IMG/VR virus record: IMGVR_UViG_3300045911_000042
Location: 1 to 24,132 of that record
Origin: a virus
Strand: one strand, 5' to 3'
Length of the DNA: 24,132 nucleotides
The position numbers and the translations under genes were made by a program. Under the pieces are notes generated by a model. It saw nothing but the letters and a program-made list of their open reading frames with translations, was not told the DNA's origin and searched no databases. This document shows, one piece after another, positions 6,873-22,795 of the stretch (position 1 is its first letter; each line of letters begins with the position of its first letter).

Positions 6873-7394
6873 TCAACTTGTCATTACTTGCAACGAGGCA
6901 TATATACTGTTACTAACAACAGGCGCATGTTCAGGACGCATCACACTAGATACAACAGTTACTCCGTTCCTATCTGCTTTCGCTGTGCCTGATGAATGCT
7001 CTGTGCTATCAACCAAATGTCCTTTCGGCATACCCGTAACAACATTTTTTCCATCGCTGTATTTTACCACCGCAAAAAATCTTCCTTTCGTTAACGTGTT
7101 TATCGTGTTGCGAATGTCTTTACCAAATGAATTGATAACCATAGTTAGTTGCTGCGTTACGACATACGTTCCGTTCTCTCTGCTACCTGCACCGTTCTCA
7201 TTATAAAACGATGTGCCTTCTTCTAATTCATATTTATAAGCTACCTTGCCTGGCGCTAAAGTAAACGCAGTCACCTCTCCGTTTGTAACGGTGTATGTAG
7301 CTACATCTTCTATGTTGCCAATCAGTACTTCGTCTATTCCACCGAAGCCGTCTCTGCATCCTAAAGGTATTCCTGATGTTATCTCACAACTCAT
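6873..7394 (-). CDS. Virion structural protein following the capsid gene (tail-tube-like candidate)
   Basis: 173 aa. The N-terminus MSCEITSGIPLGCRDGFGGI is followed by beta-rich sequence with YVVTQQLTMVINSFGKDIRN and GRFFAVVKYSDGKNVVTGM, and a C-terminal RNGVTVVSSVMRPEHAPVV segment. I recognise this as a recurring protein beside major capsid genes in Bacteroidota phages. The strand pattern, a sheet with one helix (KDIRNTINTLTKGR), would fit a tail-tube-type fold. The gene starts 24 nt after the capsid stop and ends at a strong terminator, so it is probably made at capsid-like levels, which also fits an abundant tube or decoration protein. Exact role unproven. Confidence 0.6.
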   Translation of the reverse strand: MSCEITSGIPLGCRDGFGGIDEVLIGNIEDVATYTVTNGEVTAFTLAPGKVAYKYELEEGTSFYNENGAGSRENGTYVVTQQLTMVINSFGKDIRNTINTLTKGRFFAVVKYSDGKNVVTGMPKGHLVDSTEHSSGTAKADRNGVTVVSSVMRPEHAPVVSNSIYASLQVMTS

Positions 7395-8954: not shown

Positions 8955-9533
8955 TCATAGTAATTTTTTTAAATCACTTGCAATTTTTTTTAAATCATTA
9001 CTTTTTTTTATCTTTAAGGGTGTTTTGTAAAACACGCCCTCAATTGAAAATCCATTAAACTCTCCTTTTTTTATTTTATTAAATATTTCCTCATCTTCTA
9101 TTTTATAGCTTACCATGATGCTGCCGTCTTCTATGTCTTGTCTTTCCAACTGCTTAGGCACTCCCTTGCCGTTTTCTCTGTCAACTATCCATGCCTCTAC
9201 TTCATAAATGCCTTTTATAAATCTATCCGAGTGTTCTATATTTACCATATTTGTCGCCCCATTCTTTTTCATATTTAAAAACATACGCTCCGCTGCTTTA
9301 GGTGTAAAAACAACATAATGCTCGCCTATCTCTTTATCGTGTCTATATATAGGCTTGTTCACGTTTATCATTACGCCCGTTATCATTTTCTTTTCGTTAT
9401 TGAAAAAATATTCGTGCGTTTTTGAGAATGCGTAAAATGATTTTTGGTGAGCAGGAAACTCAACTAATGAATTTGAACTAACAAATGTATCTTTGTCGTT
9501 TTCGTCAATATCAATTAAAAAAATTTTTATCAT
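8955..9533 (-). CDS. Prohead maturation protease, XkdF-like
   Basis: 192 aa. The segments ITGVMINVNKPIYR, GEHYVVFTPKAAERMF, MVNIEHSD, YEVEAWIVDR, GSIMVSYKIED and EFNGFSIEG follow the XkdF/S78-like herpes-fold protease pattern. H101 in IEHSD and S163 in GFSIEG are the likely catalytic histidine and serine. It would cleave the scaffold and any capsid pro-sequence before DNA packaging. It overlaps the tape-measure gene by ATGA and is followed by the scaffold-like gene. Length and order (protease, scaffold, capsid) are normal; what is odd is that tail genes precede it. Confidence 0.8.
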   Translation of the reverse strand: MIKIFLIDIDENDKDTFVSSNSLVEFPAHQKSFYAFSKTHEYFFNNEKKMITGVMINVNKPIYRHDKEIGEHYVVFTPKAAERMFLNMKKNGATNMVNIEHSDRFIKGIYEVEAWIVDRENGKGVPKQLERQDIEDGSIMVSYKIEDEEIFNKIKKGEFNGFSIEGVFYKTPLKIKKSNDLKKIASDLKKLL

Positions 9534-11644
9534 AAAGTGCTTTGTATTTTTATTTTATTACTTAATTCGTTATTTGCTTCTAAATCTGATTGCACCACCA
9601 CTACTCTTTGCATCCCCACATTACCGCCTAAAAACCCTGCTGTCAATGTTCCGTTCGGATTTTCTCTCGGCATCACCAGACCTTGTGTATTAGAGCCCGA
9701 TGAGCCACTACCGCTACCTAAATTCGGTGCAGTACCTATGTTTGCGCTCCTATATGCTTTTACTGCTGTCGCTATGTTAGCTAATACAGTAGCTACTCCA
9801 GTAGCTATGGCAGCTATGTTCATCGGGAAAGGTTTTCCTGCTCCCGCTGCAACTGCTCCACTAATTGCCTTCGCACTATCTAATGCCATTTGTGCCGCTG
9901 TTATGTGTGCTTGAAATTTTTGCAGCTTAGCTTGGTCTTTTATGAATATCTCGCCCAGTGAAGTTAATGAGGCAAGTATGGAGCGTTCAATGTCTAATCG
10001 CGCTTGCGCTAAGTCCTGCTCATCCTTTAATATTTTTTGTGCGCTTTCGTTTGCTCTTTTCGCCTGTTCATCTTCTTGCTTTTTTCTTTCTTCTTGTTTT
10101 TTACTATGGTATTCAAGTTCTATCAATCCTAATTCATGATTTTTCTTTATCTCTAATTCTTTCAACAACTCGCTTGACCTGCCGAACTCATTTATTATAT
10201 CTTGCCGCTCTTTTTCATAGGCTAATAAATATAGTTGTTTTCTTTTTTCTAAGCTATCTGCTGTCGCATCTAACCTCATTTTATTCAATAAATTTTCCTC
10301 TTTTAACTTCTGCTCATTTTCTTTTATTATAGCATCTGTAATCTCTTTATCCTGTTCTTTCTTTTTATCTGCTGCCTTTTTTCCCTCTGCAATTCTGAAT
10401 AGGGCTAAATCCCTTTCTGCTTTTTCTATCTTCGCTTTTTGTTCTTCAACAACTCTTAATCTATTTTTTTCAATTGCCTCAACGTCCAATCCTTTTGCTT
10501 TTGCTGCTTTCAATATTTCTTCCTGAGATACGCCAAACAATTCTGCCTGCTGTTTTATTAATTCTTTTAATTTATTATTTTTTTCTTCTTCAATTTCTAA
10601 CTCACGTTTCGCTCTCTCGATAATCATTTTCAATTTTTTGCCCTCTAAATCCGCATACTCTTGCCCTGCCGCTTGTCTTTTCTTAATTTCAAAATCAATA
10701 CTATCTACCTCTTTATCGTGAGCCTGTTGCTGTTTTTTATTCTTCTCATCAAGCAGTTTTATTTCCGCCATTGTTTGAGCTGAATTATTTGCAGCTTGTT
10801 TAGCTAAGGCATCGCTTCTTTCTTCTTCCGCTTTCTTTAGCTCTTTATATTTTTTTATTTGGTCAATAATATATCCTGAAATTCCGTAAGACAAAAAATT
10901 AATAACCTTTTGGCCTATGTCAATTAAATGTTCAAATGATTCAACAATAAAATCAATTCCTATTTTTACAGCCTTATTAACTGACTCCCATTTTGCAAAA
11001 TATGTTATTGCCCCTGCAACGGCTGATACTATTGCAATTATCGGGAATGCCTTGAGCGCATTATTAGCAAGCCATTGCACGGCTGTATATGTTTTTGTCA
11101 ACAATATCTTTCCTTGCAAAACAAGAAAGCTCTCCTTCTCGAAAGCTGCCCTAATCTGCTCCAATGCAGTAAGTGTGCTTGTGGCTGCTTGTAATTGTGT
11201 TATTGTTTCAAGCATTTTCTCGTTTTCCACGCCAAGCATTGCAGTAACGCCCCTTACGGCAGTGAAGCCACTAACAACGGTTGAACCTAATTGTAGTGCC
11301 GCCTGCATTTTCACTCCATCATTCGATAACCTGTTTACTTGGTTACGCAAGTCGCCAACTTCGTCTTTCAATTTAGCAGCGTTGTTTATGGCTTGCTGAC
11401 CGATTGGAGTTTCCCTGCCTGCTATCGCTGCTAAATCCGCGAATTCTTTCGATAGCTTATTTAATTCGCGAATGCTTAAACCACCATTTTTTAGTTTTTC
11501 ATTTAGCTCGTCAAATTTTTTGTTTACATCACCTATATTTTTGGAGCTGTTTTTAGTTTCGTCTAAAGCTTTTTTTACATCCAATAAATCATTTACACTA
11601 TTGCCAGTGTCAACTCTACCATTTATTATTATTACCTCTTCCAT
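9530..11644 (-). CDS. Tail tape measure protein
   Basis: 704 aa. The N-terminal 110 residues are helical, and residues 120-215 contain hydrophobic helices, including a membrane-like ALKAFPIIAIVSAVAGAITY at 197-216. Residues 262-550 form an almost unbroken Lys/Glu-rich coiled coil. Residues 590-630 (AKAISGAVAAGAGKPFPMN and an Ala-rich hydrophobic run) are typical of tape-measure C-termini. It sets tail length and enters the host envelope at DNA ejection. At roughly 0.15 nm per residue, about 100 nm of tail is expected (inference). It is the longest coiled-coil protein in the window. It directly precedes the prohead protease, which is not the usual neighbour. Confidence 0.85.
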   Translation of the reverse strand: MEEVIIINGRVDTGNSVNDLLDVKKALDETKNSSKNIGDVNKKFDELNEKLKNGGLSIRELNKLSKEFADLAAIAGRETPIGQQAINNAAKLKDEVGDLRNQVNRLSNDGVKMQAALQLGSTVVSGFTAVRGVTAMLGVENEKMLETITQLQAATSTLTALEQIRAAFEKESFLVLQGKILLTKTYTAVQWLANNALKAFPIIAIVSAVAGAITYFAKWESVNKAVKIGIDFIVESFEHLIDIGQKVINFLSYGISGYIIDQIKKYKELKKAEEERSDALAKQAANNSAQTMAEIKLLDEKNKKQQQAHDKEVDSIDFEIKKRQAAGQEYADLEGKKLKMIIERAKRELEIEEEKNNKLKELIKQQAELFGVSQEEILKAAKAKGLDVEAIEKNRLRVVEEQKAKIEKAERDLALFRIAEGKKAADKKKEQDKEITDAIIKENEQKLKEENLLNKMRLDATADSLEKRKQLYLLAYEKERQDIINEFGRSSELLKELEIKKNHELGLIELEYHSKKQEERKKQEDEQAKRANESAQKILKDEQDLAQARLDIERSILASLTSLGEIFIKDQAKLQKFQAHITAAQMALDSAKAISGAVAAGAGKPFPMNIAAIATGVATVLANIATAVKAYRSANIGTAPNLGSGSGSSGSNTQGLVMPRENPNGTLTAGFLGGNVGMQRVVVVQSDLEANNELSNKIKIQSTL

Positions 11645-14586: not shown

Positions 14587-15761
14587 CTAAGTGCTTTTGT
14601 CCTTGTATTGCCTAATTTAAAAGTAACATTTTCTCTTATCAATTCATCCTCATCATTCTTCAGCTCATACGATGAGTTAACTAATGACACTTGAATGTAT
14701 TGAGCCCCCTCGCTAATCATTACGTTTGTGCTTTCATACATCTCGGACACTAACCAATTTTGAATATCCCTATTTATCCAATCGCTGTTAATCTCTATTT
14801 TATCGCTCGATATGTTTTGGTAGTTAACTATTCTGTTTTTGTTTGAGTAACTAAAATTATTAGAATCGTCCCATTTACCCCATGATTGTAAAACCTCTTT
14901 TCTCTCTATCTCTGTCGTATGCTTCCTTTTTTTTGTAAACGTAAAAGCGTCTATTCCACCAAATGAATTTAGAAAATAAAATCTTTCTTTATCATATTTA
15001 CTGCAATCCCTATCCACCTCAACAACCATTACATTGGTATTTTTTGTCTCCGTTGAGTTTGTTATCCATATTCTATAAAAAACACAGTTGTCAAAATCTT
15101 GCTGCGTTATTGACGTGTTGTTTATTATTGCCTGCGGACTTGCGTTTAGTGCTATTATCTTAGGCGTCGTTGATAGTGATACATCCTCAACTATTATACT
15201 ATCGTTGTTAGCATCTCGCAAATCAATCTTATATTTTAAATTATTCGCGTTGTTGGTGATAAAATAAAAAAATAAATTTTCGTTTATTGCGCATTTAAAC
15301 CTGTTAGTTGCATGAGGATATATCGTCAAAAATCTTTTCTCCGCCGGGTCAGTGCCCCACACGTAATTTTCGTTATTAAAACGTAAAAAATAATCAGGTG
15401 CTAAACACGCTTTAAAAAATGTTTTTGTTCCTGTTGTTATGTTTGACTGCAACGCTGGTGTTGTTCCGTACCTCTCGTAAATCTTTATATAAACAGTGCC
15501 ATTATTAGCCGCATCATCGGTTAGTGTGTGAATAGGCATTGCACTATTGCAGGAGATTCTACACATATTAGATACGTCAATCATTGCCCTTGAACCATTA
15601 CGCGGAAAAACCATTGCTGTGGTTTTTAAAATAGAATTTACGAAAATCTCTATGTAAAAAGAAAAGTTAGGCTGTCCCGTTTGATTAGACGAGAACACCC
15701 ATGTTATCGGGTTATCGCTCGGTGTGTATGTAAGTGGTTCACTATGTATTGTTATTGCCAT
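14583..15761 (-). CDS. Tail/baseplate protein, function unknown
   Basis: 392 aa from ATG 15761 (MAITIHSEPLTYTPSDNPIT), chosen over an in-frame ATG nine codons upstream because the longer N-terminus is basic and lies within the previous gene. It is beta-rich throughout (FSFYIEIFV, TVYIKIYERYG), with CSKYDKERFYFLNSFGGIDA and a KKRKHTTEIERKEVL segment in the second half. Similar proteins occur next to the larger baseplate-like protein in Bacteroidota phages. It overlaps the gp10-like gene by 20 nt and the next gene by ATGA. I infer a structural tail-tip component and see no catalytic motif. Confidence 0.6.
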   Translation of the reverse strand: MAITIHSEPLTYTPSDNPITWVFSSNQTGQPNFSFYIEIFVNSILKTTAMVFPRNGSRAMIDVSNMCRISCNSAMPIHTLTDDAANNGTVYIKIYERYGTTPALQSNITTGTKTFFKACLAPDYFLRFNNENYVWGTDPAEKRFLTIYPHATNRFKCAINENLFFYFITNNANNLKYKIDLRDANNDSIIVEDVSLSTTPKIIALNASPQAIINNTSITQQDFDNCVFYRIWITNSTETKNTNVMVVEVDRDCSKYDKERFYFLNSFGGIDAFTFTKKRKHTTEIERKEVLQSWGKWDDSNNFSYSNKNRIVNYQNISSDKIEINSDWINRDIQNWLVSEMYESTNVMISEGAQYIQVSLVNSSYELKNDEDELIRENVTFKLGNTRTKALR

Positions 15762-16311
15762 CTGCCATCTTTTTAAAACTAACTTCAACTAATTTTTTTA
15801 AAGCGATTGAAACCACTCTTTTCATCTCATCAATGTAGTCATCGCCAAATGCCTCAGTCCAGTTCTTTGCATCTATACCTTTTTTCTTTACGTTTGTAGC
15901 TATCGCCCACGATAGACTATTATAGTTGTCGGCAAACAATCCTGCCGCCTGAACCCATGAGCGTATAGCTTCAACCATTCCTATGCTTGCTCTCGGTGTG
16001 TTGAATGAATACGGAGATTCAATCTTTTTTTCTATTCCGCTTACTCCTTTATCAACAAAATCAGCCTCTTTGCTTGCAATCACTTTGAATGAATATACAT
16101 TACCACTCACCTGAACGGGCATCGCCACTATTGTTTGAGCAAGTGTCGCTGATTTGCTTAGTGAGCGAGAAAGAAGAATCTCTCTCGCCATTTCAACCGC
16201 TTGCCTGTTAACTGAATTTATAATAACAGACATACTATCATTGAACACATCAGCTTTCGATATTCCAAGCCCAAGACCTGATAGTTGTTGTTTTATTTCG
16301 TTTTCAGTCAT
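15742..16311 (-). CDS. HK97 gp10-like neck/tail completion protein
   Basis: 189 aa from ATG 16311. Helical N-terminus, then SLSKSATLAQTIVAMPVQVSG and YSFKVIASKEADFVDKGVSG, a layout like HK97 gp10-type tail-completion proteins, where a polar middle strand pair is followed by a GxxG-type loop. A SPYSFNTPRASIGMVEAI segment and a C-terminal helix with KRVVSIALKKLVEVSFKK follow. Proteins of this type sit at the head-tail joint. The start lies 3 nt after the stop of the -1 frame extension of the chaperone candidate. It overlaps the next tail gene by 20 nt. Confidence 0.6.
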   Translation of the reverse strand: MTENEIKQQLSGLGLGISKADVFNDSMSVIINSVNRQAVEMAREILLSRSLSKSATLAQTIVAMPVQVSGNVYSFKVIASKEADFVDKGVSGIEKKIESPYSFNTPRASIGMVEAIRSWVQAAGLFADNYNSLSWAIATNVKKKGIDAKNWTEAFGDDYIDEMKRVVSIALKKLVEVSFKKMADGNNNT

Positions 16312-16314
16312 CAA

Positions 16315-16572
16315 TTATATAAGTAAATTTTGCTTACTTTTTTTTATATAAAAATTTATTTTAAATAAAAATTGCTTGTATTGTTCTTCGAGTATATTAT
16401 CCCATTTAGTATAATCATTTCCGCTTAGTGCATGAACCCAATCTATCCAAGCCTGCGCATTATCTTCTCTGCTTTTTGCGCGTGATACTTTGCTTCCGCT
16501 GTTTTTAGAATTTGAAAACCAATGTGTATGTTCTTGTATTTTTGCAAAAAAAAACCTACTAAATCCAAAAAA
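16315..16572 (-). CDS. -1 frame extension of the chaperone candidate (gpT-like part)
   Basis: In the -1 frame relative to the 199-aa gene, a stop (TGA, 16575-16573) is followed by 85 sense codons up to TAA at 16317-16315. The frame has no ATG, GTG or TTG anywhere, so it can only be translated by frameshifting. It reads as normal protein (SREDNAQAWIDWVHALSGND, then KWDNILEEQYKQFLFKIN) and its stop lies just before the gp10-like start, leaving no wasted space. A slip at either heptamer gives a 242-aa fusion. The alternative, a sequencing error or decayed gene, is possible but fits less well with the slippery sites. Confidence 0.65.
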   Translation of the reverse strand, partial: FFGFSRFFFAKIQEHTHWFSNSKNSGSKVSRAKSREDNAQAWIDWVHALSGNDYTKWDNILEEQYKQFLFKINFYIKKSKQNLLI

Positions 16573-17042
16573 TCATTCGCTTTAAAATAATTATTAAATA
16601 TCTCAGCCCTCTCTTTTGGTGGAACATCGCCATATTTTTTATCCTTCTCAATATAACACAATGCAAATAATCTTTGCGGATTTTCCTCTATATCCATACT
16701 TACATCGGTGCTATCTATAAACCTGCCTGCTGTCCATGACTTACTATCTAAGTTTTTCTCAAAATAATAATCTATACCGTTTATGGTTACCGTACTTTTT
16801 GGCTCTTTTGGTATGTAATCAAAATCTTTTATTATTTTTTTATACGCAGTAATGACATCGTCTTTATGTAAACTCATTAAATCCTTCTTTTTTATTTCGG
16901 TAATTTCACTAATTAAGTTAACCATGTCAATAATAGTCAATTCGCCTATTACTATTCCATCCTGCCACTTAAGGTATTTTGCAGCTTGTTTGATAGAATA
17001 ATTATTTATTTTTTTTGGCAATTTTATTTCTAAATATTTCAT
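16443..17042 (-). CDS. Candidate tail assembly chaperone, zero-frame product (gpG-like)
   Basis: 199 aa. It begins MKYLEIKLPKKINNYSIKQA. Its core includes VTINGIDYYFEKNLDSKSWT followed by AGRFIDSTDV, then NPQRLFALCYIE and PKERAEIFNNYF, a pattern I associate with tail assembly chaperones, which hold the tape measure during tail building. Near the 3' end two TTTTTTG heptamers occur in frame, and a second frame without any start codon continues to 16315, matching the lambda G/GT arrangement. Unusually, four genes separate it from the tape measure. The start overlaps the last 41 nt of the upstream glycosyltransferase. Function rests on pattern, frameshift layout and tail context. Confidence 0.6.
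   Translation of the reverse strand: MKYLEIKLPKKINNYSIKQAAKYLKWQDGIVIGELTIIDMVNLISEITEIKKKDLMSLHKDDVITAYKKIIKDFDYIPKEPKSTVTINGIDYYFEKNLDSKSWTAGRFIDSTDVSMDIEENPQRLFALCYIEKDKKYGDVPPKERAEIFNNYFKANDFLDLVGFFLQKYKNIHIGFQILKTAEAKYHAQKAEKIMRRLG
16545..16572 (-). promoter_or_regulatory. Tandem slippery heptamers for -1 ribosomal frameshifting
   Basis: Two copies of T TTT TTG occur in the zero frame, at 16572-16566 (codons GAT TTT TTG) and 16551-16545 (codons TTT TTT TTG within a run of nine T). They are 21 nt apart and sit at the very start of the -1 open frame. I see no strong hairpin or pseudoknot just downstream in this AT-rich stretch. Confidence 0.55.
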
Positions 17043-17697
17043 CTGCTATTTTGTTTTGAATTGATTGGTCTTTATTTCTAAAACTCTCGTAAATTGAAAA
17101 TTCATCAGGCAATAATATAGGTCTAATCCAGCCATGCTCATGTTTCGCACATACTATTTTTTTGTTTTTTTTAGATGCCTCTAAGCTAAAGACTAAATCG
17201 CTCATCAACTTATATTCACTATTGTGTATTATAGGCTTAAAATAATCCGTTTTAAAAGCCGTTACTCCTGTCCCGGCTACATCTATTATAACATCTTCGT
17301 TTACCGCATCTAAACACCTATATGCCTTGTTTCCCGTGTAGTAATTTCTACCCTCCGAAATTATTTCCCTGCCATGATAAGTAACTATACAACCATGTAT
17401 ATTTATTTTTTTTATCGTTTCATCCACATAATTCTTAGGGTAAAGTAAGTCATCGTCAAGAGTAAAATAATAGCAATCTTCTTTTAACTCGCTTAAAAAA
17501 TAGAACTTGCCATTATCGGTTAAGTCATCTCCGAGTTTAAAATTTAGATTCCTGTACTTCCTTAAGAAAGAAGGTGCCTCAACACAATTATTCAAATAAA
17601 TATTTATTTCGTCAAACTGAAAAAATATAGTTTCCAACATTACCTCTAAATGTCCAAATCTACTTCTGTGAGTTGATATGTTGGCCGTTGTTTTCAA
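17002..17697 (-). CDS. Glycosyltransferase, GT-A-like, with DDD motif
   Basis: 231 aa. After an N-terminal STHRSRFGHLEVMLETIFFQ segment, residues 78-87 (FTLDDDLLYP) hold a triple aspartate expected to bind metal and nucleotide sugar. AGTGVTAFKTDYF (141-153) and MSDLVFSLEA (165-174), the latter likely containing the catalytic acid region, follow. The layout is that of GT-A-fold enzymes that move a sugar from a nucleotide donor. No membrane segment is present, so it acts in the cytoplasm. Its start forms an ATGA overlap with the GT25-like gene, so the enzymes are likely made together. Acceptor unknown: virion protein, DNA or host glycan are all possible. Confidence 0.75.
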   Translation of the reverse strand: MKTTANISTHRSRFGHLEVMLETIFFQFDEINIYLNNCVEAPSFLRKYRNLNFKLGDDLTDNGKFYFLSELKEDCYYFTLDDDLLYPKNYVDETIKKINIHGCIVTYHGREIISEGRNYYTGNKAYRCLDAVNEDVIIDVAGTGVTAFKTDYFKPIIHNSEYKLMSDLVFSLEASKKNKKIVCAKHEHGWIRPILLPDEFSIYESFRNKDQSIQNKIADEIFRNKIAKKNK

Positions 17698-18302
17698 AAC
17701 TTTAAAGTGTCTCCTTTCAAAACTACGCTTGTTATATCAGATTGGCTGGTTGCTTGCCACGTCATTGACTTTTTTACTATATAACAATTATTATCTTTCT
17801 GAAATTTAGTAAACAAAACATCAACTTTATTTTTCTCGCTTAGCAAAACATTCAACAACCTATCTATACATGAGTTATTTATTATATAGCTATGAGTGCA
17901 TAATACATTATTTGCTTTATTGAACGGTAAATCAGGCATCTCTATTATTGAATTTTCAAAAGTATATACATTTCCTCCTAAGTAAAGCAAATCGAAATCT
18001 ATATTTTTATTTAATAAATTATAAATATCATCTTTCTTAATTTCATCTGCGAAAATACAGTCATCTTCCAGCACAAGGGTATATCCTATTCTTTCATGTA
18101 TTGAGTTTAAAAGTTTTATATGGCTATCAAGGCATCCATAATGACCTTTCATTAATTGCGAAATATTTATTGATTTATATTTTTCTTTTCCGTTTACTGC
18201 ATCTACGAAAGAATAATCGTCAATCCCTATTTTTTTTAATTCGCAAATAATGCTTCTTCTCCTGTCTTTTCTGTTCTTAAGATTAATTATTTTTGTTTTC
18301 AT
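17694..18302 (-). CDS. Glycosyltransferase family 25-like protein
   Basis: 202 aa. It shows the GT25 series: KIINLKNRKDRR at residues 4-15, FVDAVNGKE (32-40), GHYGCLDSHIKLL (53-65), LVLEDDCIF (76-84) with the acidic motif, DLLYLGG (104-110) and a C-terminal QATSQSDI (183-190). GT25 enzymes build lipooligosaccharide or modify proteins such as collagen, using nucleotide sugars. It is shorter than bacterial LPS GT25 enzymes but no motif is missing. ATGA overlaps on both sides join it to the other two transferases. No signal peptide. Confidence 0.85.
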   Translation of the reverse strand: MKTKIINLKNRKDRRRSIICELKKIGIDDYSFVDAVNGKEKYKSINISQLMKGHYGCLDSHIKLLNSIHERIGYTLVLEDDCIFADEIKKDDIYNLLNKNIDFDLLYLGGNVYTFENSIIEMPDLPFNKANNVLCTHSYIINNSCIDRLLNVLLSEKNKVDVLFTKFQKDNNCYIVKKSMTWQATSQSDITSVVLKGDTLKF

Positions 18303-19009
18303 CTGCTTATGAGTGGGTTTTTACTCCTTAAATTATAGTGCATCTTACTATCATGCGCGCCATGAAAAGCAAGTGAATAGTTAGGAAAAGGCAAGTATAT
18401 GTTTATATCTAATTGATTCATCCTGTTTGTCAGTTGATAACCGACACCGCTGCTTATTTCCTCATTAATAAACCACTCTATAGGTACTGCATCTATCTTG
18501 AATTGTAGTTTTTTTAATGTTTCGTAATTACAGAAAAATCCGCAATCAACATAAAAACACCTTTGGTATTTTTTTTTGTTTATCACTTGGGTGAAAGCAG
18601 ATTTATTATTCCAACACATTGTTCTTCCATCAAATATTATATTGTGAGCGTATGCACTATAATTCAGTTCGCTATGTATTTTAATTATTTTTTTTATTTG
18701 TATATTAGAAAAATCATCAGGTATAAACAAATATAAATCATGTTTTGGCAAGTTTCTGATAATATCAAAAGACTTCCTCCACATCTTATAATGGTTTCTT
18801 TTTCCGTACCTCTCGTTTGTTCTAATGTATTGGCATAGATTAGCATGTTCTTTATAATCGTAGTTTGAGCAATCATCAATAACTATAACAGTATCTACAT
18901 TCCCGTTTAGTTCCAGTAATGTGTTCATTAGCATATTTGGTCTATCGCAGCTTAAAACGACAGCACAGATTCTAGTAGTATTTATATCTTGCGTTTCCTG
19001 ATTTGTCAT
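18299..19009 (-). CDS. Glycosyltransferase, GT2-like
   Basis: 236 aa. Residues 14-29 (ICAVVLSCDRPNMLMN) and 38-49 (VDTVIVIDDCSN) form the nucleotide-binding start of a GT2/GT-A fold. FIPDDF at 95-100 is the DxD-like metal site. FYVDCGFFCNYETLKKL and LAFHGAHDSKMH follow; the last resembles the histidine-rich tails of phage and capsule transferases. It overlaps the large terminase gene by 38 nt and couples to the GT25-like gene by ATGA, so it is expressed with packaging and morphogenesis genes rather than with early genes. Acceptor and sugar cannot be read from the sequence. Confidence 0.75.
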   Translation of the reverse strand: MTNQETQDINTTRICAVVLSCDRPNMLMNTLLELNGNVDTVIVIDDCSNYDYKEHANLCQYIRTNERYGKRNHYKMWRKSFDIIRNLPKHDLYLFIPDDFSNIQIKKIIKIHSELNYSAYAHNIIFDGRTMCWNNKSAFTQVINKKKYQRCFYVDCGFFCNYETLKKLQFKIDAVPIEWFINEEISSGVGYQLTNRMNQLDINIYLPFPNYSLAFHGAHDSKMHYNLRSKNPLISR

Positions 19010-20150
19010 ATTTTAAGAAAAAGTATTTGATTGCATCCATTGCGTGGTCATTCTTTTTAAGCGGCACATTCAAATTATTTCCATTCTTATCCGTTTCCCA
19101 AATGTAATTGTTTTTTTCGTAAATGATGTTTTTGCTTTGCTCTGTGATTAATATTTTTTTTGACTGCACTATTGATATACCGAATACTACAGAGCCTGTT
19201 CCTTTTTCTGTCGCTGTAATTAATAATCCCTTTCTTCTTAAAGCCTCTATAGCTTTCGGCTCTGCGCTATCCGCATAAATATAAACTGAATTATTTATTT
19301 TATTTTTTATTTCTAAAAACAAATCATCATCCGTCAATCCTGTTTTGTATAGTATCTCATCAACAATAAATGCATCGTTGTATTTGTACACCGCAACGAG
19401 CGCCGTAAAAGAATTGCTAAATCCAAAGTCAAGACCATAACCTAATAGCTTTGCTTCGCTTGGTATATTAGTTACCACCTCCCATCCATCATAAACAGTT
19501 CCCATTAACGAGCCTATATTGCCTAAACCATACACTTGCCAAAGGTTTGCGAAATATTTATTTTTTATTTCACCATTATCAAAATACCCGAGTTTATAAT
19601 AGTTCATTATCTCTTTTCTTTCTCTATCACTTAACTGTTCATTATCTTTAAATGTTAGCTGTAAAAAATCACAATCATCGCGAGTTAAAACATGTTCATC
19701 AATAAAAAAGTGTGCATCAGGGTTATAGTCTGCATAAACTATTTGTGCTCTTGTGCTTATCTGTCTATATCCCTCGAATGAAATTTTATTTACTTCATTA
19801 AAATAAGCCACATGACATCTGAATCCTTTACCTGCATCATCCTTATCTAATCCCATGAATTTAATAAACGAGCCGTTTGGAAATCTGTACATAACACCGC
19901 CTATCAGTCTTTGCGGCATAAATATACCTATCTCTCTCATTATGTTTATGAAGTCTTTTATTACTGTTACCCTCATTTTGGTTAACTCATGAGATATGAC
20001 AAATACCTCCCTGTACTCTTTATTCAGGCAATGGTTGATAAGAATTATTAGAATAGATATTGTTTTACCTGCACCCTGCCCACCTCTAACTATCCGTATC
20101 GGTTTCTTTAGCTGTGATATCTTCTTTAGTGCTGTTGTCGCCTGTATCAT
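18972..20150 (-). CDS. terL: Terminase large subunit
   Basis: 392 aa. ATPase domain: Walker A GGQGAGKT (23-30), Walker B HVAYFNEV with E119 as catalytic base, and the coupling-type segment DYNPDAHFF (141-149). Nuclease domain: GLDFGFSNSF with D241, YADSAEPKAIE with D294, and NDHAMDAIKYFF with D368/D372, the RNase H-like metal site. It pumps DNA into the prohead through the portal and cuts the concatemer. A complete protein at the short end of the family's range. It overlaps the small-subunit gene by 65 nt. The portal, usually the next gene, is more than 12 kb downstream. Confidence 0.95.
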   Translation of the reverse strand: MIQATTALKKISQLKKPIRIVRGGQGAGKTISILIILINHCLNKEYREVFVISHELTKMRVTVIKDFINIMREIGIFMPQRLIGGVMYRFPNGSFIKFMGLDKDDAGKGFRCHVAYFNEVNKISFEGYRQISTRAQIVYADYNPDAHFFIDEHVLTRDDCDFLQLTFKDNEQLSDRERKEIMNYYKLGYFDNGEIKNKYFANLWQVYGLGNIGSLMGTVYDGWEVVTNIPSEAKLLGYGLDFGFSNSFTALVAVYKYNDAFIVDEILYKTGLTDDDLFLEIKNKINNSVYIYADSAEPKAIEALRRKGLLITATEKGTGSVVFGISIVQSKKILITEQSKNIIYEKNNYIWETDKNGNNLNVPLKKNDHAMDAIKYFFLKYDKSGNARYKYY

Positions 20151-20551: not shown

Positions 20552-20785
20552 TTATTTTTTTTTATTTAAGTTATCGTAAAAATTGGATAATCTTACTAGT
20601 GCATCATGTACGCATGATGCGCAATAAAGGTTTATTTTTGAGCCACCAATTTCTAAAAGAGCCTCTTGCAGCAATTGTTTTTCTGTTGAAGATATTTTTA
20701 TCTTATTGCCCGAGAAATAATAATTTCTAAGGGGCAAGAATATTTTCATAAATTTATTTAGGTTAGGATATTTTTGTTTATTCAT
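20552..20785 (-). CDS. Small protein with a CxxC motif, unknown function
   Basis: 77 aa, rich in Lys and Leu, with a C-terminal KINLYCASCVHDALVRLSNF segment containing a C-x-x-C pair and a nearby His, which could bind a metal. Short proteins with this YCxSCVHDAL element occur close to the small terminase in Bacteroidota phages as I know them, without assigned function. It ends 4 nt before the terminase start and overlaps the upstream membrane-protein gene by 8 nt. It could be a DNA- or RNA-binding accessory of packaging, but this is a guess. Confidence 0.6.
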   Translation of the reverse strand: MNKQKYPNLNKFMKIFLPLRNYYFSGNKIKISSTEKQLLQEALLEIGGSKINLYCASCVHDALVRLSNFYDNLNKKK

Positions 20786-21077: not shown

Positions 21078-21477
21078 AGAGTATTTTTTTTTGTTTATTA
21101 AATTGGTAGTAAATTTTATTTTTTTTATTTTCGTTAATCTTGCCTGATTTAAGGAAGTCATAAATAAGTTGTTTATCCGCATCAGGCATTTTGGGTAATT
21201 CAGAATCTAAGAATTTTCTAAAGCAATCAGTTGTGCTTGATATATTTGGAGATATTTCGCAGGTGTTTACTCGTTCTTTATGTGATTTATTAAAGGAAGA
21301 ATAATTGTTTCTCCATTCGTTTTTTGCTATTGTTTTAAAATATTTTATTTTTTCCTCATCATTTTTTAGTTTTCTTTCTTTTTGGTTCAGCAAAATCCAT
21401 GAGTGCTGAAAGAGGTCGAGGTGAAGCGATGAGTTATTAGTTAATATTTGGCAGTATTTAATCAATTGCTCGTACAT
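21040..21477 (-). CDS. Sigma-factor-like transcription protein
   Basis: 145 aa. The N-terminal half has the shape of sigma-70 region 2: LHLDLFQHSWILLNQ (residues 18-32) resembles the DLxQExxLxL helix, and KIKYFKTIAKNEWRNNYSSF (43-62) the YxxxIAxNxxxDxxR helix that contacts the -10 element. The C-terminal half (MPDADKQLIYDFLKSGK and the following basic helix) resembles a short region 4. It lies just before the terminase genes, where phages often keep their late-gene regulators. I infer that it may redirect host RNA polymerase to late promoters. Similarity is weak by eye; a plain helical DNA-binding protein is the alternative. Confidence 0.5.
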   Translation of the reverse strand: MYEQLIKYCQILTNNSSLHLDLFQHSWILLNQKERKLKNDEEKIKYFKTIAKNEWRNNYSSFNKSHKERVNTCEISPNISSTTDCFRKFLDSELPKMPDADKQLIYDFLKSGKINENKKNKIYYQFNKQKKILYERFIDFDCANF

Positions 21478-21708: not shown

Positions 21709-22795
21709 AAATAGATGGTTCTAATTCGTCGTTCAATGATTTGCCGTCTGAATTGAAAAATTTATTTATTAGATCTTCGGAGTTTTTAGGTTCTAATTCT
21801 TTATGTTGATGTATCGTGTTTTTTATTTCGTAAGGTCTTTTAGAATATTTTATTTCTCCAGAGTTGTTTACCCAATAATAATTATTTCTTTTGTAATCCC
21901 AGTATAGTATTGCTTTACCGAGTTTACCTACACCTTTGGGTTTTGATTTTTGAATAAAAAAGTGCAGTTCATTATCTTTGTGCGGTTGTCCGTATTCGTT
22001 ATTTAAAAAAGTTGGTGGGCGATAGCACAATCCCATTTGGAAGCCGCGCCTGTGCCACTCACGACCGCCCGACCATTCGCTTGGCATGGGAACGGGAGTA
22101 TATCTAAGTTTAGTTTCTTTGTCAATAACGGGGGCTATATCTGCCACGTGTGTAATGATAAAATTTACTCTGTTATTTTTTTTTGCATCTCTACGGCATA
22201 TTTTTAATGCACTTGAAATAAAAAAGTCTTGCCTACCGTTGTATTTGTGGCTTTCGTCTATAGCATCATTGAAAGGGTCTAAGTAGGTTGTATCGAAAGA
22301 AATTCCCAATTCATTTTCTATAGAGTTGGCTAAGGAGTAAAATTCGCTTATGGTAAAGTCTGTTATTGATGTGTCTATCTCTTCGGTATCTATGAAATAA
22401 AAGTGCTGTGCGATAAATTGTTCGGCATACATTCTTTCGGATTCGCTCATACAGTAGGTGATAGTTTCTTGTTTAGTGTTTTTTGTTAGGTAGGGCTTGC
22501 CAATAAGTTTATAACACAGTTCAGCTATAAGCTCTGATACGCTACCGCTTTCTCCAGAATAAACTAAATGCTTCCAGCCGTATAGAACGGAAGTGTTTAG
22601 GAGTATCTCTAATCCTAATTCTGTTTTGCCAGAATGTGGACTACCCGCTATGTAGAATGGGTAGCCCTTTTTTAGGGAGCAAATATCGTCTAAGGGTTCA
22701 ATGCCTGTGGATAGACCTTTAACAACGCCATCATATCTAAGTTCTGACAGTTCTTTTATTTTGTCTTCTACGGAAAAATAACTTTTTTTATTCAT
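21704..22795 (-). CDS. DnaB/RecA-like replicative helicase, helicase domain only
   Basis: 363 aa. It starts with a short lead containing KGLSTGIEPLDDI, then Walker A GSPHSGKT (51-58), the H1a-like acid in YSGESGS (E82), Walker B FDTTYLDPFND (D173), H4-like FIITHVAD (H216) and a basic finger region KSKPKGVGKLG (283-293). This is the RecA-type motor of DnaB helicases. The DnaB N-terminal domain is missing, as in many phage helicases. It would unwind DNA as a ring at the phage origin, after loading by the replication protein or its partners. The next gene upstream, a coiled-coil protein, overlaps it by 8 nt and might be a loader or adaptor (inference). Confidence 0.85.
   Translation of the reverse strand: MNKKSYFSVEDKIKELSELRYDGVVKGLSTGIEPLDDICSLKKGYPFYIAGSPHSGKTELGLEILLNTSVLYGWKHLVYSGESGSVSELIAELCYKLIGKPYLTKNTKQETITYCMSESERMYAEQFIAQHFYFIDTEEIDTSITDFTISEFYSLANSIENELGISFDTTYLDPFNDAIDESHKYNGRQDFFISSALKICRRDAKKNNRVNFIITHVADIAPVIDKETKLRYTPVPMPSEWSGGREWHRRGFQMGLCYRPPTFLNNEYGQPHKDNELHFFIQKSKPKGVGKLGKAILYWDYKRNNYYWVNNSGEIKYSKRPYEIKNTIHQHKELEPKNSEDLINKFFNSDGKSLNDELEPSIF

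Follow-up and report, generated by a model that had tools for sequence, protein, structure and literature searches.

Gene order and reading frames at the locus

The DNA analysed here (hereafter the window) is a fragment of 24.1 kb (24,132 nucleotides) from an IMG/VR virus, and its genes lie mostly on the minus strand (Table 1). Read along this strand, the terminase gene is followed by three genes, a gene of 199 codons, a gene of neck type and two large genes, after which come a gene for a 200-aa protein, the tape-measure-like gene and then the head and portal genes. The relative of the neck-type gene in the Nonlabens phage P12024S gives a weak match to phrog_5 (tail completion/Neck1). The three genes situated between the terminase gene and the 199-codon gene (17002-19009) are absent at that place in P12024S, and one of them encodes a family-25 glycosyltransferase (E=1.9e-15).

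Table 1. Coordinates of the frame pair, its candidate slip sites and the neighbouring genes in the window
Feature	Position	Strand	Basis or remark
Terminase large subunit	18972..20150	-	Terminase_3C, E=1.2e-16; upstream of the frame pair
Zero-frame gene for the short, G-like product of 199 aa	16443..17042	-	ORF; N-part profile of relatives, E=8.9e-10
-1 frame, 85 codons, C-terminal part of the 242-aa fusion	16318..16572	-	stop codon 16315-16317
Upstream in-phase TTTTTTG heptamer	16566..16572	-	probably incidental
T9 run preceding a G; conserved slip site, homologous to that of relatives	16546..16554	-	at least nine T residues here in 208/208 loci
Helical domain at the C terminus, conserved and encoded in the -1 frame (AWIDWVHALSGNDYTKWDNIL...KKSK)	16333..16452	-	alignment with the -1 frames of relatives
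Next gene, neck/tail-completion type	15742..16314	-	phrog_29822, E=1.2e-7
Tape-measure-like gene	9530..11644	-	phrog_339 (tail length tape measure), E=1.1e-4

The zero-frame gene is overlapped by a -1 frame that contains no ATG, GTG or TTG, extends 125 nt beyond the zero-frame stop codon and terminates just ahead of the next gene, and which is closed on its 5' side by a TGA directly preceding the heptamer at 16572. The G/GT genes of tail assembly chaperones have this layout, in which a -1 ORF without a start codon overlaps the zero-frame ORF and runs past its stop, and the predicted fusion comprises 242 aa with either of the two candidate slip sites. Apart from the TGA, these elements had been listed in a preliminary description of this DNA and are present as claimed there. 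The arrangement exceeds what chance would give: no other minus-strand gene among those tested has a -1 frame that stays open for at least 60 nt on both sides of its stop codon.

The run of nine T residues (T9) starts 18 nt past the TTTTTTG at 16572. Together with the following G (16554-16545) it holds in phase both T_TTT_TTT (at 16554) and T_TTT_TTG (at 16551), and it is the only run of at least nine T residues on the coding strand of the window. In-phase TTTTTTN heptamers are common in the genes of the window, and hence the heptamer at 16572 is unremarkable when taken alone. In the relatives described below, the junction consists of a single run of at least nine T residues at a conserved FF, with a TAG directly 5' of it in the -1 frame in several families, and the homologous site of the window is therefore the T9. 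The near-identical contigs L002 and L003 retain both the TTTTTTG at 16572 and the T9 exactly. The TTTTTTG is probably background, with occasional use possible. Two tandem TTTTTTG slip sites had been proposed earlier; both in-frame heptamers do exist, but a tandem double site is not supported, as the T9 alone is homologous and in-phase TTTTTTN is frequent in this AT-rich window.

Six further T9 runs lie on the plus strand, corresponding to A9 in the sense of the minus-strand genes (562-570, 1376-1384, 18569-18577, 20555-20563, 21084-21092 and 22176-22184), and should the host's RNA polymerase slip on A9, the genes carrying them would be affected too.

Conservation of the T run and of the -1 frame

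Direct searches matched only two contigs, both near-identical to the window; tblastn of the window fusion against the phage collection gave no match, and a BLASTP comparison between the window and P12024S did not reach significance. The portal gene led to the Nonlabens phages P12024S and P12024L, in which genes 38 and 39 (numbering of P12024S; phrog_32199 and phrog_38404) occupy the same place, gene 39 being in the -1 frame relative to gene 38, which has T9 at the overlap. These phages resemble the window in the homologous family, the post-terminase place, the T9 at the junction and the conserved -1 frame, but differ in that the pair of P12024S is deposited as two separate hypothetical genes (L010:1237-1931). 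Gene 39 has been called from an internal ATG, the annotation missing the first 31 or so codons of the -1 part, and phrog_38404 covers only this truncated fragment. With the neck-gene alignment as an anchor independent of the T run, 80 loci were retrieved. Of the 78 that were scored, nearly all of them found via the neck gene, 69 show the zero and -1 frames paired as in the window and joined at T9 or T10. Among the remaining nine, L045 carries T10 and reads as one open frame; the other eight are without the pair in the scanned stretch, mostly because the contig ends shortly upstream. The relatives derived from the neck gene thus form a bridge between the window and P12024S despite the non-significant BLASTP.

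Searches with the fused proteins returned at least 578 relatives in viral contigs, 80 of which were read. They also returned five contigs from assemblies of cellular genomes, including Flavobacteriaceae contigs of Winogradskyella, Flagellimonas and Galbibacter; these assemblies and P12024S point to a host that is probably a member of the Bacteroidota. A further scan, of the phase-2 subfamily, contributed 54 more loci that were read, some being repeat views of contigs counted before. In total, 208 loci representing 166 distinct contexts were covered, with T9 in 162 contexts, T10 in four and a shorter run in none, and 56 non-redundant loci were analysed in detail. Throughout the 208 loci, which include the isolate genomes of P12024S and P12024L with T9, the run is uninterrupted, at least nine T residues long, and found in all three codon registers. 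Loci that appeared to be continuous, or to be of a +1 type, turned out when read by eye to have the same T9/-1 layout. The T9 is kept even in relatives with a far higher GC content, L055 (57% GC) and L177 (47% GC), where chance runs are rare. The more distant Flavobacterium phage FPSV-S2, which has an annotated tail chaperone, contains no run of at least nine T residues anywhere and no such layout, and the T9 device is hence not general to all Flavobacterium phages.

The coding nature of the -1 frame was addressed with a profile of the relatives' -1 parts, from which the window and its near-copy were left out and which was compared with the complete set of 442 stop-to-stop segments in the window. 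Its best match is the -1 frame itself (16318-16572, E=1.6e-5), the next segment reaching E=0.047, and the N-part profile of the relatives finds the zero-frame gene. By homology, the -1 frame is coding. The sequence AWIDWVHALSGNDYTKWDNIL of the window aligns with KWGWYQSIYSLAKGDIRRF... of relatives, likewise situated in their -1 frames, and its counterpart in the alignment of relatives is KWGWYQSIYSLAKGDIRRFKSI. The comparison with related phages that had been suggested as a check thus finds both the -1 frame and the slip run conserved, and the claim of a programmed -1 shift gains strong support from the conservation of the peptide and the slip site in 166 distinct sequences.

Structure predictions were obtained for the natural T10 variant L045, in which the gene encodes one protein of 257 aa, and for the 199-aa product of the window. 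The AlphaFold model of the former has a mean pLDDT of 88.9, is weak only around residues 191-210, and its C-terminal part consists of helices. The mean pLDDT of the latter is 80, with residues 171-185, in the zero-frame tail after the run, below 50, a low value that counts as weak evidence since the tail was without aligned relatives in that prediction. In the N-terminal part of the L045 model, residues 2-31, 86-116 and 130-161 look like repeats of a unit of beta-hairpin plus helix, perhaps an internal duplication.

The constancy of this arrangement bears on two explanations that require no programmed shift. That the split results from a sequencing error or from pseudogene decay of a once continuous gene has a practically negligible probability. 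The predicted viral protein A0A6J5N0W0 matches the fused model from end to end (TM 0.83/0.80), and single-frame versions may exist, but the same split is present in the isolates P12024S and P12024L and in many contigs from independent studies with both parts conserved, and such conservation in isolates and in 166 contexts rules this explanation out. Only a trace more probable is a phase-variable homopolymer, whereby the length of the DNA run would switch the long form on and off. Homopolymer runs are unstable, and L045 with T10 (551-560; same contig as L197) and a joined 257-aa frame has a near-identical counterpart, L046, with T9 (555-563) and split frames. However, 162 of the 166 contexts have exactly T9, the other three T10 cases keep the frames split, and switching would leave many fused or T8 alleles, so that the constant run length makes DNA phase variation very unlikely.

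Slippage by RNA polymerase or by the ribosome

All experimentally known tail-chaperone frameshifts are, to our knowledge, ribosomal, and ribosomal slippage was also assumed in the preliminary description of this locus, whereas the conservation of T9 makes transcriptional slippage at least as likely. In a review, tail-chaperone shifts are placed at the ribosome (PMC5009743). Concerning transcription, the RNA-DNA hybrid measures 9-10 bp (PMC5009743), runs of nine A or T residues are regarded as slippage-prone (PMC1088944), E. coli RNA polymerase slips more on poly(T) than on poly(A) (PMC6260861), and in mxiE slippage on a run of U residues inserts a U that joins two ORFs (PMC1088944).

If a programmed ribosomal -1 frameshift alone were responsible, tRNA-Phe (or Phe/Leu) would slip in tandem on U_UUU_UUU or U_UUU_UUG in a manner similar to lambda G/GT. 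Every T9 includes an in-phase T_TTT_TTT in any register and ribosomal slippage thereby keeps its place among the candidates, but the presence of an in-phase X_XXY_YYZ heptamer is trivial for any T9. For ribosomal slippage seven T residues would suffice, yet none of the 166 contexts has fewer than nine, and in the relatives read the junction is never another type of heptamer. Where the run takes its commonest register (nTT TTT TTT Tnn), the two outermost T residues fall beyond the sole in-phase heptamer. One register has V/L/I ahead of the run and Y/W/C behind it, another A/S/G ahead and L behind, so that the flanking residues change between registers with the nine T residues remaining constant. 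The flanking T residues are partly explicable by amino-acid constraint.

Folding of the downstream 60 nt in the 56 non-redundant loci revealed no excess over shuffled sequence (mean z +0.3 and +0.1), and no stimulatory RNA structure was found in 60-nt windows up- and downstream of the junction in these loci, by a single-strand folding of such windows that is blind to pseudoknots and distant elements. This result for the downstream side counts, though not decisively, against the ribosome alone; some ribosomal frameshift sites, for their part, need no 3' stem-loop or pseudoknot.

In the other coding sequence of the 56 related loci, a run of at least nine T residues was seen once against 7.9+-1.9 expected (ratio about 0.13) and runs of at least nine A residues 15 times against 33 expected (about 0.45, a mild depletion), with ratios of 0.6 for T7 and T8 and 0.93 for T6, all expectations coming from synonymous shuffling that ignores shared ancestry between loci and so serving as a guide and not as a probability. 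The especially strong depletion of T runs of nine or more argues against slippage by the ribosome alone. In its favour, T7 and T8 are depleted as well, as would be expected if ribosomes slip too, and A runs of this length are merely mildly depleted, six A9 in the sense of the minus-strand genes occurring in the window.

Two features expected of transcriptional slippage are thus found together, namely a conserved A/T homopolymer of at least nine residues at the junction and the avoidance of such runs in other coding regions. Nine T residues in any register, the lack of downstream structure and the depletion of long T runs favour transcriptional slippage, none of them being decisive. The persistence of T9 in loci with 47% and 57% GC adds to this side. 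On this basis, transcriptional slippage is the somewhat more probable cause of the shift, a ribosomal -1 frameshift alone being a serious but less probable alternative. It is likewise slightly favoured that a large and widespread lineage of Bacteroidota phages sets the short:long ratio of its tail chaperone by slippage of RNA polymerase on an invariant T9 and not by ribosomal frameshifting.

Putative role of the two products and relation to known systems

Sequence profiles of Pfam, PHROGs and the PDB revealed no family of known function, and in PHROGs the two halves are separate families of unknown function (phrog_32199 and phrog_38404). Fold comparison with the PDB gave weak matches (Z<=3.0), which are untrustworthy and do not constitute evidence of a new fold, and in BFVD the sole named match among those listed is a tail assembly chaperone (A0A8S5V8Z8), at a weak E=8.5e-3. 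A tail assembly chaperone of the G/GT type is the best functional guess, plausible from layout and operon position rather than from homology. The earlier proposal of this function thus fits the G/GT layout and the position in a structural operon, but a named family is absent in PHROGs, Pfam and PDB.

The usual site of such genes, between the major tail protein and the tape-measure gene, is not the one observed here, as the gene comes after the terminase and four genes before the tape measure. This distance had been correctly described, but is not peculiar to the window, since in relatives, too, the gene follows the terminase and precedes a neck gene and two large genes. A position after the terminase that is common to the relatives is a mild argument against a chaperone. 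It is unlikely, though conceivable, that the pair specifies two isoforms of a different assembly or structural protein, for instance a head-completion or neck assembly factor, and not a tail chaperone. Such a role would suit a gene placed right after the terminase and before the Neck1-like gene in the window and in relatives, adjoining terminase and neck genes and not lying between tail tube and tape measure, and would agree with databases (Pfam, PHROGs, PDB sequences) that name no chaperone and with the lack of any PDB fold match of weight. It is opposed by the zero-frame gene with a short -1 extension, which is the hallmark layout of tail chaperones, by the finding of no second -1 overlap of such kind among the minus-strand genes tested in the window, and by the one weak fold match to a named tail assembly chaperone.

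Considered as a whole, a two-product gene with a G/GT-like role and a transcriptional slip at T9 is the best explanation and a moderately probable one. The region would represent a conserved two-product gene of a tailed phage, probably of Bacteroidota, in which layout and conservation are observed and the two products are predicted. Ordinary expression would yield the 199-aa protein, and a minority of expression events would shift by -1 at T9 to yield the 242-aa protein, which would share the first 165 or so residues and in which the conserved C-terminal domain would replace the zero-frame tail. The shift would arise from slippage of the host RNA polymerase on T9, with the addition of one U, and a fraction of the mRNAs would thereby have U10 and be read as one frame. 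Most likely as in lambda G/GT, the short form would coat the tape-measure protein and the long form, the rarer of the two, would recruit the tail-tube protein via its extra domain. A gene encoding a 173-aa protein after the capsid-type gene (6873-7394), belonging to a family of unknown function (phrog_19091, E=1.4e-17), may specify the tail-tube protein that is expected to bind the long form.

With lambda G/GT and similar frameshifts of tailed phages (PMC5009743), this gene has in common two predicted products from one start, a short start-less extension, conservation of both parts and a location in a tailed-phage structural operon. It differs from lambda G/GT in a slip site that invariably comprises nine or more T residues in a row and in its position after the terminase gene and before the neck gene, with the tape measure four genes away, and from the named chaperone families in having no detectable sequence similarity to them. 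With Shigella mxiE, Thermus thermophilus dnaX and IS elements (PMC1088944, PMC5009743) it shares nine identical A or T residues at an ORF overlap; as in mxiE, one inserted U would join both ORFs into a longer product, and, as for genes with programmed transcriptional slippage, runs of at least nine T residues are avoided in other genes. In contrast to these examples, it is a phage morphogenesis gene and not a secretion-system, IS or replication gene, and its slippage is predicted from sequence. A search of the open literature, without most subscription journals, found no report of transcriptional slippage for tail chaperones. Two-product tail chaperones and programmed transcriptional slippage, the latter in a few bacterial genes, are each well known, and no paper found in that literature combines them.

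These findings explain a recurrent annotation gap, in that a conserved domain in the -1 frame of hundreds of phages has been missed by gene callers, and they open a direct test of whether ratios in phage morphogenesis can be set during transcription. If the proposed scheme is correct, the protein outcome of lambda G/GT would be reached at another level of gene expression, and tail-chaperone recoding would join dnaX as a case in which the same protein outcome is achieved via two different steps of gene expression.
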